This document shows, in pieces, positions 32,768 through 36,501 of a stretch of 64,000 bases of DNA (position 1 is its first letter; every line of letters starts with the position of its first letter). The notes under the pieces were generated by a model. The model did no database searches and was not told where the DNA came from. It worked only from the letters and a program-made list of their open reading frames with translations. Source of the DNA: Paenarthrobacter sp. AR 02 (GTDB taxonomy: Bacteria; Actinomycetota; Actinomycetes; Actinomycetales; Micrococcaceae); NCBI RefSeq assembly GCF_021538675.1, contig NZ_JAJUKH010000001.1:186001-250000 (forward strand), written 5' to 3'. A program made the position numbers and the translations under genes.

Positions 32768-33910
32768 ATGACTACAGCAGCTAATCCGTCCGTTGGACTG
32801 GTCGGTTGGCGTGGCATGGTCGGCTCCGTCCTGATGCAGCGCATGCAGGAAGAGAACGACTTCGCCAACATCAACCCGGTATTTTTCTCCACCTCGAATG
32901 CAGGAGGTGCCGCCCCGTCCTTCGCTGAGGGGGCAGGCAAGCTCGAGGATGCGTTCGATATTGAGACGCTGGCCAAGCTGCCTATTATTGTCACCGCCCA
33001 AGGTGGCGACTACACCAAGCAGGTTCATGGTGAACTCCGCAGCCGTGGCTGGGACGGCCTCTGGATCGACGCTGCTTCCACCCTGCGCATGAACGACGAC
33101 TCCATCATCGTGCTGGACCCCATCAACCGCGACGTCATAGACGCAGGCCTTTCCGGCGGGGTGAAGGATTTCATCGGCGGAAACTGTACGGTCTCCTGCA
33201 TGCTGATGGGCCTCGGCGGCCTCTTCAAGAACAACCTCGTGGAGTGGGGTACGTCCATGACGTACCAGGCCGCTTCCGGTGGCGGTGCCCGCCACATGCG
33301 TGAGCTCCTGAACCAGTTCGGCACCCTCAACAACGAGGTCAGCAGTGAACTGGAAGATCCCGCCTCCGCCATCCTGGAGATCGACCACAAGGTCCTCGCG
33401 GCACAGCGCACCGGCGTTGACGCCACCCAGTTCGGCGTCCCGTTGGCTGGCTCCCTGATTCCCTGGATCGATGCCGACCTCGGCAACGGCCAATCCAAGG
33501 AAGAGTGGAAAGCCGGCGTAGAAACCAACAAGATCCTCGGCACCGGAAACGGTACCGCCGGCAAGGACCACATCGCCATGGACGGTCTCTGTGTCCGCAT
33601 TGGTGCCATGCGCTCCCACTCGCAGGCACTGACGCTCAAGTTGCGTGAGGACCTGTCCGTCACCGAGATTGAAAACCTTCTGGCCAAGGACAACGAGTGG
33701 GCCAAGGTTGTTCCCAATACCAAGGAAGCCTCCATGGCGGACCTGACCCCGGTGGCTGCGTCCGGCACGCTGGACATCCCCGTGGGCCGTATCCGCAAGC
33801 TCGAAATGGGCCCGGAATACATCAGCGCCTTCACCGTGGGCGACCAGCTCCTGTGGGGTGCAGCCGAGCCGCTCCGCCGTATGCTCAACATCGCGACGGG
33901 CAAGCTCTAG
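32768..33910 (+). CDS. asd: Aspartate-semialdehyde dehydrogenase (E. coli type)
   Basis: 380 residues. Reduces aspartyl-phosphate to aspartate semialdehyde for lysine, threonine, methionine and peptidoglycan synthesis. The N-terminal NADP-binding [13 protein letters not shown] and the catalytic [17 protein letters not shown] (Cys140) and [16 protein letters not shown] segments match the proteobacterial (E. coli) class rather than the class common in Corynebacterium and Mycobacterium. Monocistronic, followed by a long hairpin that also forms the 3' end of the next gene. Confidence 0.96.
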
Positions 33911-33932
33911 TACCCGCCCGCCCCGAACGTCG

Positions 33933-34958
33933 CTAACCCGCTGTTCTGTTGCTGCCCAGCAACGGAACAGCGGGTTTTCGACTTCCTGCCTTGGCCAAGG
34001 CGGTTTTGAGCAGACGCTCAACCTCCCAGGGCCTGCTGAGGTCTCCCCACTCGATCCTGATGACGTTCCAGCCCATTGCCATAAGGGCTTTCTCCCGCCG
34101 CCGCTCCTGGAATATGACGTCCTCAGTTGGTGCGTAGTCGAAGTACTTGGCTCGACCATCGAACTCAAGGATGAGCTTGTGGTCCCTCCAGCCGAAGTCT
34201 CCCCTGTAGGTTCCGGTGGGCGTCGTGACCTCTACCTGAAGGTCTGCGCCAACGATGCCGAGCCGGTCCAGAAGCGCACGTGTGCGCGTCTCCCCTACCG
34301 ATTCGGACCTCCCATCCATGGCGTCCAGGATCCGCCACAAGCGTCGGGCACCCCGCGTGATCGCTCCGGTGCTGAGGTAATTCCGCATAACCTGCGGATC
34401 AGCACCCTTTCGAAGAGCTTGGTCCGCGATGACCAGAGCCCGCTCAAAGTCCAAGGTCCGTGCACAGTCCACCACGGTGCGCTCAAGGCTGGTGATCGGG
34501 ATGGGCCTTTGCCAGGGGGCCAGCACCTCGACGATCTCAGTACCCGACAGCGGACCTCCGTGGGCCACAACATCGTCACCAGAGCTCCCCTGGGACGGGG
34601 AAAACGGTGTGGTCACGTGCACCTGGGCCCCACTGTCCCAAGGCGAGCATCCGTGCAAGCGGGCGGCACTGGCATGACTGTAGACACTGGTTGTCCGCGC
34701 ACCACGATGATGCGCCTCTATCCGCAGCAGGTCCTGTTCCCATGGCTTTCGCCGATGCCAATCCTGGGCCCTGACGTAGGCACCACGCCTAAGCCTGATC
34801 AGTTTCCCGGAGCGGACGCCAGTTGTGAGCACCCGATCACTAAAGCCGAGTCCGGACAAGTCTGCTGTTGTCGCTACCGGGGTGCCGGGCCAGAAGCGGG
34901 AGATGTGGTGGTCAAGTTTCTTTGTTTGCATCTGTCCATCGTCCGGGCGCGCGGACAT
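33933..34958 (-). CDS. AbiEi-like / DUF559-type protein
   Basis: 341 residues (or 332 from an ATG at 34931). The N-terminal part (about 28-150) resembles the AbiEi antitoxin-type winged helix (LRRGAYVRAQDW, SHASAARLHG). The C-terminal part (about 240-325) resembles DUF559, a PD-(D/E)XK endonuclease-like fold: YRGDFGWRDHKLILEFDGRAKYF gives the acidic D...E core, followed by RRREKALMAMGWNVIRIEW. A toxin or nuclease partner is not present. The last nine codons lie inside a hairpin shared with asd, and related repeats lie on the other side of the gene. No function has been shown for most members. Confidence 0.75.
   Translation of the reverse strand: MSARPDDGQMQTKKLDHHISRFWPGTPVATTADLSGLGFSDRVLTTGVRSGKLIRLRRGAYVRAQDWHRRKPWEQDLLRIEAHHRGARTTSVYSHASAARLHGCSPWDSGAQVHVTTPFSPSQGSSGDDVVAHGGPLSGTEIVEVLAPWQRPIPITSLERTVVDCARTLDFERALVIADQALRKGADPQVMRNYLSTGAITRGARRLWRILDAMDGRSESVGETRTRALLDRLGIVGADLQVEVTTPTGTYRGDFGWRDHKLILEFDGRAKYFDYAPTEDVIFQERRREKALMAMGWNVIRIEWGDLSRPWEVERLLKTALAKAGSRKPAVPLLGSNRTAG
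33935..33976. repeat. 19-bp inverted repeat between asd and the AbiEi/DUF559 gene
   Basis: Left arm 33935-33953 (AACCCGCTGTTC...) and right arm 33958-33976 are complementary at 18 of 19 positions with a four-base loop. The right arm contains CAACGGAACAGCGGG, which recurs in the repeat array on the other side of the gene. Confidence 0.85.
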
Positions 34959-35376
34959 AGCCCACCATGGGTCAGTTCCCGTATGTGGACAACCCCGACC
35001 AGCTCATCGGAGTCGGGGTGCCAGGGAGTGCGCCGGCATCCCGCTGCGTCGGCAAAGCCGTCGCCAACCCGCTCCAACGTCGCTGGCCAACAACGGAACA
35101 ACGGGCCAGCAACGGATTACCCGGCCCACGCCCAGACCTACCCCCGAGCCACGCCCACCGCCCCACCCAAACGCGTCGCCAACCCGCTCCCACGTCGCTG
35201 GCCAACAACGAATCAGCGGGCCAGCAACGGATCACCCGGCCCACCCCCCGAGCCACGCCCACCGCCCCACCCAAACCCGTCGCCAACCCGCTCCAACGTC
35301 GCTGGCCAGCAGCGGAACAGCGGGCCGGCAACGGACCACCCAGACCTACCCCCAGCAACGGAACAGCGGGCCGGCC
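34959..35376. repeat. Three tandem repeat units upstream of the AbiEi/DUF559 gene
   Basis: After about 100 bases of plain sequence, three degenerate copies begin with GTCGCCAACCCGCT at 35060, 35175 and 35279 (periods 115 and 104, last unit about 97). Each contains CGTCGCTGGCC...CGGGCC(A/G)GC, which can fold on itself. The third unit ends at the stop of the next gene. No coding sequence is credible here. Confidence 0.85.
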
Positions 35377-36501
35377 TCAGCTCGCCATGAACTTCAGGTA
35401 CGCCCGTCCCTGAGCCTGGAACGCCCGCTCGGCGGCAGGACCAAGCTCGCCTGCAAACGGTTCCGGGACCACCCCGGCGTTCTTCCCGGAGGTCGTCCGG
35501 GCCCAGGTCCCCACTACGTCGCCCCCGGACACGATGACGCGCTTGAAGACGCCGTTCTTCCCCGGCACCACCCGTTCGGCGTACTCCGGGGCGAGAACCA
35601 GGCTGCGGTCCTGGTAGCCGAGAAGGTATTCGTCAAACCCAGGCAGTGCCAGCAGCGAGCGGGAGCCGGGAACGCCGTCGTCGAGCATTGTTGCCGCTTG
35701 GGGTGACAGCCAGTAGCTGGCTCCGCGGAATTGAAGCTCAACCAAACGGTCCCGCACAACTGCCAAGGCAGCGCGGGCCTCGGTGAGCGGCACTTGGCTC
35801 CACCACGCAAAGTCCTTGATGGTCGCCGGACCGTGGCCCCGGAAGTACCGGAAGAGGAGTTCGGCTATCCCTTCCTCACGGCCCAGGTCCCTGGACTCCG
35901 GAATCCAGTCCTCGAAGGGTACAAACAGTTGCTGGACGCCGGCTTTTCCGCCAGAGGCCGCCATGGGTCCTTGGACCAGCCACGCTTCGCGGCACAAAGT
36001 TCCCAGGATGTGGATGCCCCGCTGGGAGGTAGTGGGCTGGCCAGCCTCCTCAAAAGCGGTGAACAGCTGTTCGCGGGTTGCCCCGGCGGCACCCTCTCCT
36101 GTCTTGAGGACTTCGGCGGTTTTGTACGCTATGTCCCGGCAGTGGCTGATGTCGTCGGAAGTGATGGCCAGTTCGCGGTGCCGCCCCGCCACGACGGTTG
36201 CCAGCCGACCGCTGGTGATCCCCAGGATCCAGCGCAGATCTTCGGGTGCCAGCAGGTGCAGGGTCCCGCGCATGGGCCAGGAACGAACCACCGTCCCGGC
36301 GTCGAGCGCTGCGCGGACGTCCGAGGCCGCAATACCGGGCACGCGTTGCCCCACAGCCCAGAAAGCCATTCCCAGATCCTGGGCCTGCATGGCGGTCATC
36401 CAGCGGACAGCGTCGGCGATACCGGGGAAGCCTCCGGCCAGCAGGCCCTGGCTGGCGAGCCGGAGCCGGCCCATGACGCGGGGAGTCAGCGGTGTAGGCA
36501 T
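35377..36501 (-). CDS. AlkZ-like winged-helix DNA-binding protein
   Basis: 374 residues of the winged-helix AlkZ/YcaQ family (HTH_42). The conserved QxQ motif is present as QAQ in AMQAQDLGM (about residue 39-41), followed by WPMRGTLHLLAPED, RYFRGHGPATIKDFAWW and LLPGFDEYLLGY-like LALPGFDEYLLGYQDR. Family members are DNA glycosylases that remove bulky alkylated or cross-linked bases. Which lesion this one acts on is unknown. The gene ends next to a tandem repeat array and starts divergent from a small membrane protein gene. Confidence 0.87.
   Translation of the reverse strand: MPTPLTPRVMGRLRLASQGLLAGGFPGIADAVRWMTAMQAQDLGMAFWAVGQRVPGIAASDVRAALDAGTVVRSWPMRGTLHLLAPEDLRWILGITSGRLATVVAGRHRELAITSDDISHCRDIAYKTAEVLKTGEGAAGATREQLFTAFEEAGQPTTSQRGIHILGTLCREAWLVQGPMAASGGKAGVQQLFVPFEDWIPESRDLGREEGIAELLFRYFRGHGPATIKDFAWWSQVPLTEARAALAVVRDRLVELQFRGASYWLSPQAATMLDDGVPGSRSLLALPGFDEYLLGYQDRSLVLAPEYAERVVPGKNGVFKRVIVSGGDVVGTWARTTSGKNAGVVPEPFAGELGPAAERAFQAQGRAYLKFMAS

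Follow-up and report, generated by a model that had tools for sequence, protein, structure and literature searches.

A palindrome-bracketed AbiEi-nuclease fusion gene in Paenarthrobacter looks like a repeat-spreading genetic element of previously undescribed type

Between asd and a gene for an AlkZ-like DNA glycosylase, Paenarthrobacter sp. AR 02 carries a single gene that is enclosed by related palindromes and has its stop codon inside one of them. What have such a gene and its repeats to do with each other? The locus lies in a contiguous stretch of 64,000 nucleotides (hereafter the window), and it was analysed together with homologues from the genus, the order and the phylum Actinomycetota.

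The cassette at the asd-AlkZ locus and its protein

The gene (33933-34958, minus strand; open reading frame, Pfam and structure model) encodes 341 residues, a putative fusion of an AbiEi-type DNA-binding protein with a Vsr/homing-endonuclease-like (EDxHD-like) nuclease. The convergent asd gene (32768-33910, plus strand) is the left flank at the 3' end of the cassette, and the AlkZ-like glycosylase gene (35377-36501, minus strand) is the right flank, both assigned from open reading frame and Pfam. The downstream (3') palindrome, called type A, extends over 33924-33986 and was recognized by folding and by a match to R1, a covariance model built from this palindrome and four others. Its core at 33935-33976 forms 19 pairs around a 2-nt loop, with folding z-scores of -6.3 on the minus strand and -8.2 on the plus strand, and the stop codon (33933-33935) and last codons of the gene lie inside the extended palindrome. 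Upstream of the gene, R1 detects three tandem units (35056-35118, 35171-35233 and 35275-35337), each with a degenerate palindrome and spaced 115 and 104 nt from start to start. They are followed by a half unit at 35351-35370, which duplicates the 20-mer at 33955-33974 exactly. With up to three mismatches allowed, this 20-mer matches five places in the window, where shuffled sequence gives 0.01 on average, and an Rfam scan of the window returned three tRNAs and nothing else. The hairpin with 19-bp arms, the stop codon within it, the three tandem units and the identical 20-mers described in the initial annotation of the locus were thus all recovered, and its statement that no partner toxin is present also holds, as both neighbours are asd and the AlkZ-like glycosylase gene by Pfam and no AbiEii-type toxin lies next door.

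Two Pfam families touch the protein, AbiEi_4 with 25.9 bits (cut-off 25) and DUF559 with 19.9 bits, slightly below its cut-off of 20.6; both matched parts are consistent with an AlphaFold2 model made from 59 homologues (mean pLDDT 91.5). Residues 14-215 (34314-34919, minus strand) adopt in this model the AbiEi fold, a winged helix-turn-helix with a second domain, resembling AbiEi 6y8q (Z 12.0, 188 residues aligned, rmsd 7.3) and Rv2827c 1zel (Z 10.0, 196 aligned, rmsd 4.9). Residues 218-326 (33981-34307, minus strand) form the predicted nuclease domain, closest to the catalytic domain of the homing endonuclease I-Bth0305I 3r3p (Z 13.4, 97 aligned, rmsd 2.3), followed by NGO0050 3hrl (Z 12.6, 91 aligned, rmsd 2.3) and Vsr 1cw0 (Z 10.0, 104 aligned, rmsd 2.9). 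Homologues were read at 81 gene loci, 17 of which were excluded for an internal stop or a length below 270 aa; in the 59 intact proteins used out of the remaining 64, D179, E223, D254, E265, D267, G268, K271, Y272 and R288 are invariant. E223, D254, E265, D267, K271 and R288 make up a PD-(D/E)XK-type set, and the AbiEi-like and PD-(D/E)XK-like domains named in the initial annotation are borne out in this way. Across ten homologue pairs dN/dS is 0.06-0.20, with a synonymous distance above 1 in three of the pairs. From the invariant nuclease residues and the low dN/dS, the enzyme looks active and maintained by selection.

The gene diverges more than its neighbours: between the AR 02 genome and relative G087, asd is 98% and AlkZ 80% identical, and the nuclease gene 71%. 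Paralogues in the same genome are at most 47% identical to the window protein, so that the gene is not present there in several near-identical copies. AbiEi/nuclease proteins occur in 37 of 149 sampled genomes of the phylum, with up to 14 per genome. Their Pfam matches (AbiEi, DUF559, MTES_1575 and weak RAP/CMD) are solely to antitoxin and unknown-function families, with no transposase family among them. Ten neighbour proteins from seven homologue loci were also scanned with Pfam; one had no match and nine matched transport, glycosyltransferase, aldolase, CoA ligase and amidohydrolase families and a zinc ribbon just below cut-off, with no AbiEii toxin and no defence family among them.

Bracketing palindromes across gene lineages

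Of the 198 genomes of the genus that were searched, 147 contain a homologue with an E no higher than 1e-60. Group A homologues (52-94% identity) lie at the asd site or beside ald, and group B homologues (about 46-49% identity) lie at the asd site with a different palindrome. R1 found a palindrome on both sides of the gene in all 19 group A loci tested (19 of 21 known, G217 and G207 being left out), the weakest side having an E of 1.4e-3 over 82 kb; at one locus, L079, there are five tandem upstream copies. Bracketing was also measured without a covariance model by a strict score, in which the matching of upstream to downstream flank is compared with that of control genes. A null from random pairs of window flanks was rejected because neighbouring genes share intergenic DNA, and gene controls were used instead. 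The 99th percentile of 249 such controls was exceeded by 3 of 20 loci in group A, 7 of 12 in B, 10 of 12 in C and 1 of 10 in D (Mann-Whitney p 0.008, 4e-8, 6e-8 and 0.005, respectively). The low count in group A reflects the divergence of its upstream copies, which the covariance model alone detects. By a loose score, which is sensitive to base composition, all four groups stand above controls (p 9e-5 to 6e-10); since high GC content raises the loose score (a median of 23 in foreign controls), the strict score was relied on.

The association is not confined to the genus. In the order, 119 genomes were searched and loci were taken from 30 of the 34 that had a match, which gave 28 new loci, 26 of them from 19 other genera. 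At 20 of these 26 (14 of the 19 genera) the strict score exceeded the 99th percentile of 481 control genes drawn from seven of the order-search genomes, three of the 20 being barely over the line (score 18); the other six failed. A phylum-wide search of the 149 genomes, with loci from 30 of the 37 with a match, gave 29 loci besides the window's own, L281 being the genus locus L163 again. Fifteen of them scored above the maximum of 812 mispaired flanks and 14 did not. At two of the phylum loci the flank copies are identical on both sides over 54 of 54 letters (L283) and 56 of 56 letters (L284). Shared flanks are rare in controls, as the strict score reached at most 15 in the 249 genes and at least 20 in two of the 481; the top-scoring gene of the 249, L148, turned out by Pfam to be an AbiEi-DUF559 gene itself, an unplanned positive. 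On the whole the association of gene and palindrome is regarded as well supported, though it is weak or absent in some gene groups.

Among control outliers inspected by eye were a GNAT-like gene that has a long terminator-like palindrome, from a different family, on either side (L203:15950-16510, G308), an IS3-like transposase gene (L226) and a dehydrogenase-like gene that stands out by the loose score only (L151).

The palindrome goes with the lineage of the gene. Palindrome sequences differ widely between gene lineages, and within one genome they track the lineage as well. Among the AR 02 paralogues the strict score is exceeded by L010 and L012 but not by L013, L014 and L015, and L011 stands out by the loose score only. 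In the fetched flanks of L010 to L016 the type A palindrome is absent apart from one half-arm at L011 with four mismatches, and some of these paralogues have palindromes of other types. Because each palindrome type is tied to a lineage of the gene, the two appear to form a single system. In two paralogues of another genome (L328 and L329, G365) the palindromes share their outer ends, CATTGTCG/CGACAATG, and differ in their cores.

The orientation of neighbours was taken from simple-rule gene calls at the 51 loci with a strict score of at least 18. The downstream neighbour is convergent at 36 of the 51 (one without a call) against 338 of 744 in control regions, and the upstream neighbour is divergent at 13 of the 51, so that the upstream copy at those loci is not that neighbour's terminator.

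Solo palindromes, empty sites and an apparent relocation of the cassette

Genome-wide, R1 found 16 places in AR 02, of which four belong to the cassette, 11 are credible solo copies and one is a weak match within a reading frame, taken as chance. Seven of the 11 solos lie between convergent genes. When the credible copies of this genome and of hand-picked relatives were placed by simple-rule gene calls (one of 21 matches was dropped for lying inside a reading frame), 14 of 20 were in convergent, six in codirectional and none in divergent gene contexts. The stem is under compensatory change: in 22 palindromes 12 of 26 pairs have changed on both sides, a count reached in none of 500 shuffles, and 89.7% of stem cells pair, above all 500, although pairing is favoured by the fact that these palindromes were found partly by a model containing the same structure.

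When the flanks of solo sites 1, 2, 4 and 5 were aligned, each site had one or more relatives without the AR 02 palindrome, the matching flanks there being 12-32 nt apart. At site 1 it is present in AR 02, G201 and G023, and 29 nt stand in its place in G033. Site 2 has it in the same three genomes, with 14 nt in G033 and other sequence in G012 and G008. Site 4 has it in AR 02 and G201, a variant in G203, and 13-32 nt instead in G033, G176, G023 and G196. At site 5, where five relatives were left out for a missing left flank, it is present in AR 02 and G203 and absent in the closest relative, G201, which looks like a clean loss; empty solo sites can thus reflect loss instead of gain. A clear target-site duplication was not evident by eye at the junctions of the four sites.

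Several of these spots hold other sequence. Unrelated, other-family palindromes occupy the same intergenic spots in G008 at site 4 (L270) and in G185 at site 5 (L278), as if these spots accepted palindromes of different kinds. At site 2 of G185, an extra 267-aa frame that is nucleotidyltransferase-like by eye (L275:520-1323) adjoins a palindrome kept in place, and this frame is absent there from AR 02. At site 3 of G201 a 242-aa frame, glycosyltransferase-like by eye (L276:441-1169), stands beside the palindrome; its absence from AR 02 at C11 near 1216972 suggests a deletion adjoining the palindrome there.

Solos occur in other genomes as well. G308 has one 62-nt solo copy (85%) within 400 kb and G288 two matches of 31-32 nt within 40 kb, found with an approximate query sequence. 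G450 has two places related to the G365 palindrome within 360 kb and no solo of its own palindrome in the same stretch, and no solo copy was seen in G239, G056 and G272 across the 60-100 kb examined.

Across the 198 genomes of the genus, palindrome number goes with gene presence. R1 matches were counted on both strands, about two per place, and with the bracketing copies included. At least six matches were found in 19 of 20 group A carriers (decayed ones included) against 7 of 178 other genomes (Fisher p 9e-20, kinship ignored); after removal of the four bracket matches the difference persisted (p 2e-16, kinship again ignored). A looser threshold was then applied to 20 of the presumed negatives; G207, with a broken copy, was moved to the positives and G069, with fragments of 45-56%, was kept as negative. 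Against 19 gene-negative genomes, picked mostly for having matches, the carriers still differed with p 7e-4. The seven genomes with at least six matches in which no group A gene was found include G105, with 16. For type B, 11 carriers have a median of 8 matches and 26 other genomes a median of 0 (p 5e-6, kinship ignored), and p is 0.005 after four matches are subtracted.

The gene itself is also present or absent by site. Of 30 asd loci, AR 02 included, nine have a homologue in the 1.5 kb next to asd that was read, and one of the nine homologues is fragmented. Comparison of the asd-AlkZ interval, as proposed in the initial annotation, brought out gene-free versions in the near relatives G023, G008 and G033, which consist of asd, one palindrome of the same family and AlkZ. 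At the same junction in G012 (L023) there is a different strong hairpin. The earlier idea of a single-gene cassette inserted into a repeat family stands in that the cassette is bracketed by a dispersed repeat family and empty sites exist; the search for the repeat gave about 11 solos instead of hundreds of unrelated loci, and near relatives lack the gene at this place. Insertion into a repeat family foreign to the gene is not supported, as the palindromes are owned by the lineage (19 of 19 tested loci in group A, with own pairs in other groups).

Five copies of the gene lie beside ald, a neighbour confirmed by Pfam in the two loci scanned and by tblastn in the others, and all five are bracketed by palindromes. 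In the tree these five group together with a support of 0.999 inside the asd-site copies. This is read as a single relocation of the cassette, apparently from the asd to the ald site, with the direction taken from the nesting. Broken or truncated gene copies with palindromes still beside them were noted at L017, L092, L093, L098 and L127 and, in group B, at L041.

A proposed REP-like system on an unrelated enzyme

The reading that we favour, with a modest degree of confidence, is a gene-palindrome system resembling REP/RAYT but built on an unrelated enzyme, in which the nuclease drives the spread or upkeep of the palindrome. It draws on the observed bracketing, the lineage-specific palindromes, the link with copy number, the presence and absence of solos, the conserved nuclease residues, purifying selection and stem covariation, together with the one relocation read from the gene tree. 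We infer that the AbiEi-type N-terminal part would bind the palindrome of its own lineage and that the Vsr/homing-endonuclease-like domain would nick or cut there, either at the double-stranded dyad or at an extruded hairpin. Repair or recombination may then copy palindromes into new intergenic places or remove them, so that cutting would be the cause of movement and transposition its outcome. The cassette would have its two ends at the stop-codon palindrome and at the upstream copies and may occasionally be relocated as a whole through repair or recombination, and the solos would be non-autonomous derivatives tolerated at gene 3' ends. Several findings count against a spreading system: the low copy number in AR 02, with 11 solos, the loci that fail the strict score, the seven genomes with at least six matches in which no group A gene was found, and the empty solo sites that may be losses.

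Binding of the palindrome is plausible, as inverted repeats in the promoters of their own genes are the binding sites of AbiEi proteins (PMC7319586); the same finding supports an operator role. It is conceivable, though unlikely, that the palindromes are operators of the AbiEi-type part and the solos spare binding sites or insulators, with no movement driven by the nuclease. The two proteins matched by the N-terminal fold, AbiEi and Rv2827c, are autorepressors that bind inverted repeats in front of their genes (PMC7319586), and an upstream palindrome is present at every group A locus tested. However, a second copy lies over or just past the stop codon, and the solos are at gene 3' ends and not in divergent promoter regions. 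Autoregulation also leaves unexplained the invariant nuclease residues, the presence and absence of solos, and the relocation together with both palindromes.

It is quite improbable that the palindromes come from a terminator family of the genome and act as intrinsic bidirectional terminators between convergent genes, the nuclease gene being there incidentally. The convergent setting of 14 of 20 solos, the single palindrome at the asd-AlkZ junction of near relatives without the gene and the hairpin-like covariation are what terminators would give, but the rarity of shared flanks among control genes, the tracking of gene lineage by the palindrome within one genome and the divergent upstream neighbour at 13 bracketed loci are not. 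There is a slim chance that the palindromes are made by another enzyme and that the gene hitch-hikes, with homologous recombination between the palindromes accounting for its copying and loss. Recombination between brackets would leave an empty site with one palindrome, and tandem units fit it as well, yet one gene family paired with different palindromes across many lineages is unexpected for a passenger. The least probable reading, an orphan antitoxin or stand-alone AbiEi-type defence protein with an anti-phage nuclease, is matched by PADLOC AbiEi models (best E 1.6e-14) but leaves the palindromes unexplained, and with no AbiEii-type toxin adjoining the gene and no toxin or defence family among the neighbour proteins scanned, the defence or maintenance role suggested in the initial annotation was dropped.

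The favoured system, a nuclease spreading its own palindrome, shares several features with REP/REPIN-RAYT: a gene between two palindromes (throughout the tested group A loci and in part of the other groups), a palindrome type that goes with the gene lineage, palindromes that are commoner where the gene is present (kinship ignored), tandem units beside the gene, compensatory stem changes, and a gene that diverges more than its neighbours. The hairpins of REPINs likewise carry compensatory changes, and in the strain studied every RAYT has a REPIN cluster beside it (PMC3116915). The enzymes differ, as the one here combines an AbiEi fold with a PD-(D/E)XK (Vsr-like) domain and is not an HUH/Y1 tyrosine transposase of the IS200/IS605 superfamily, and with no HUH transposase the system is therefore not classed as REP-RAYT. 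The GTAG head of REPs is absent from the type A consensus, and REPs usually number more than 100 copies (PMC2817692), against 11 solos here. CGTC-tagged REPs are short palindromic repeats, apparently without a dedicated transposase according to PMC3733652, and the type A consensus likewise has the ends ACGTC/GACGT; these REPs are known from other species, however, and the type B and C consensus sequences lack these letters, so that the likeness may be chance.

With AbiE type IV toxin-antitoxin systems the gene shares the N-terminal fold of the AbiEi antitoxin and Rv2827c; unlike them it has an extra nuclease domain and no cognate AbiEii nucleotidyltransferase toxin next door. The Vsr/EDxHD proteins I-Bth0305I, NGO0050 and Vsr correspond to the putative nuclease in C-terminal fold and in invariant acidic and basic residues. 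Homing enzymes typically reside in introns, and the Vsr gene next to that of a methylase, whereas this nuclease is fused to AbiEi, bracketed by palindromes and neighboured by asd and AlkZ. As in insertion sequences, the chromosomal place has changed, judging from the tree nesting that points to one relocation; unlike them, paralogues in the genome are far from near-identical, at 47% identity or less.

The open-access literature yielded no paper linking the AbiEi/nuclease family with palindromes. A wider proposition, held tentatively and with somewhat less than even confidence, is that of a widespread class of elements in Actinomycetota in which an AbiEi-fused Vsr-like nuclease propagates lineage-specific palindromes; such a class would be REP-like, independent in origin of HUH transposases and based on a PD-(D/E)XK nuclease, perhaps cutting extruded hairpins and spreading via repair. 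If this is true, caution would be needed in scoring such genes as AbiE defence genes, and a large uncharacterised family would gain a testable function. REP-like palindromes are common; the palindromic repeats of these genomes would then have a source, and a whole range of nucleases paired with palindromes of their own would be open to study.
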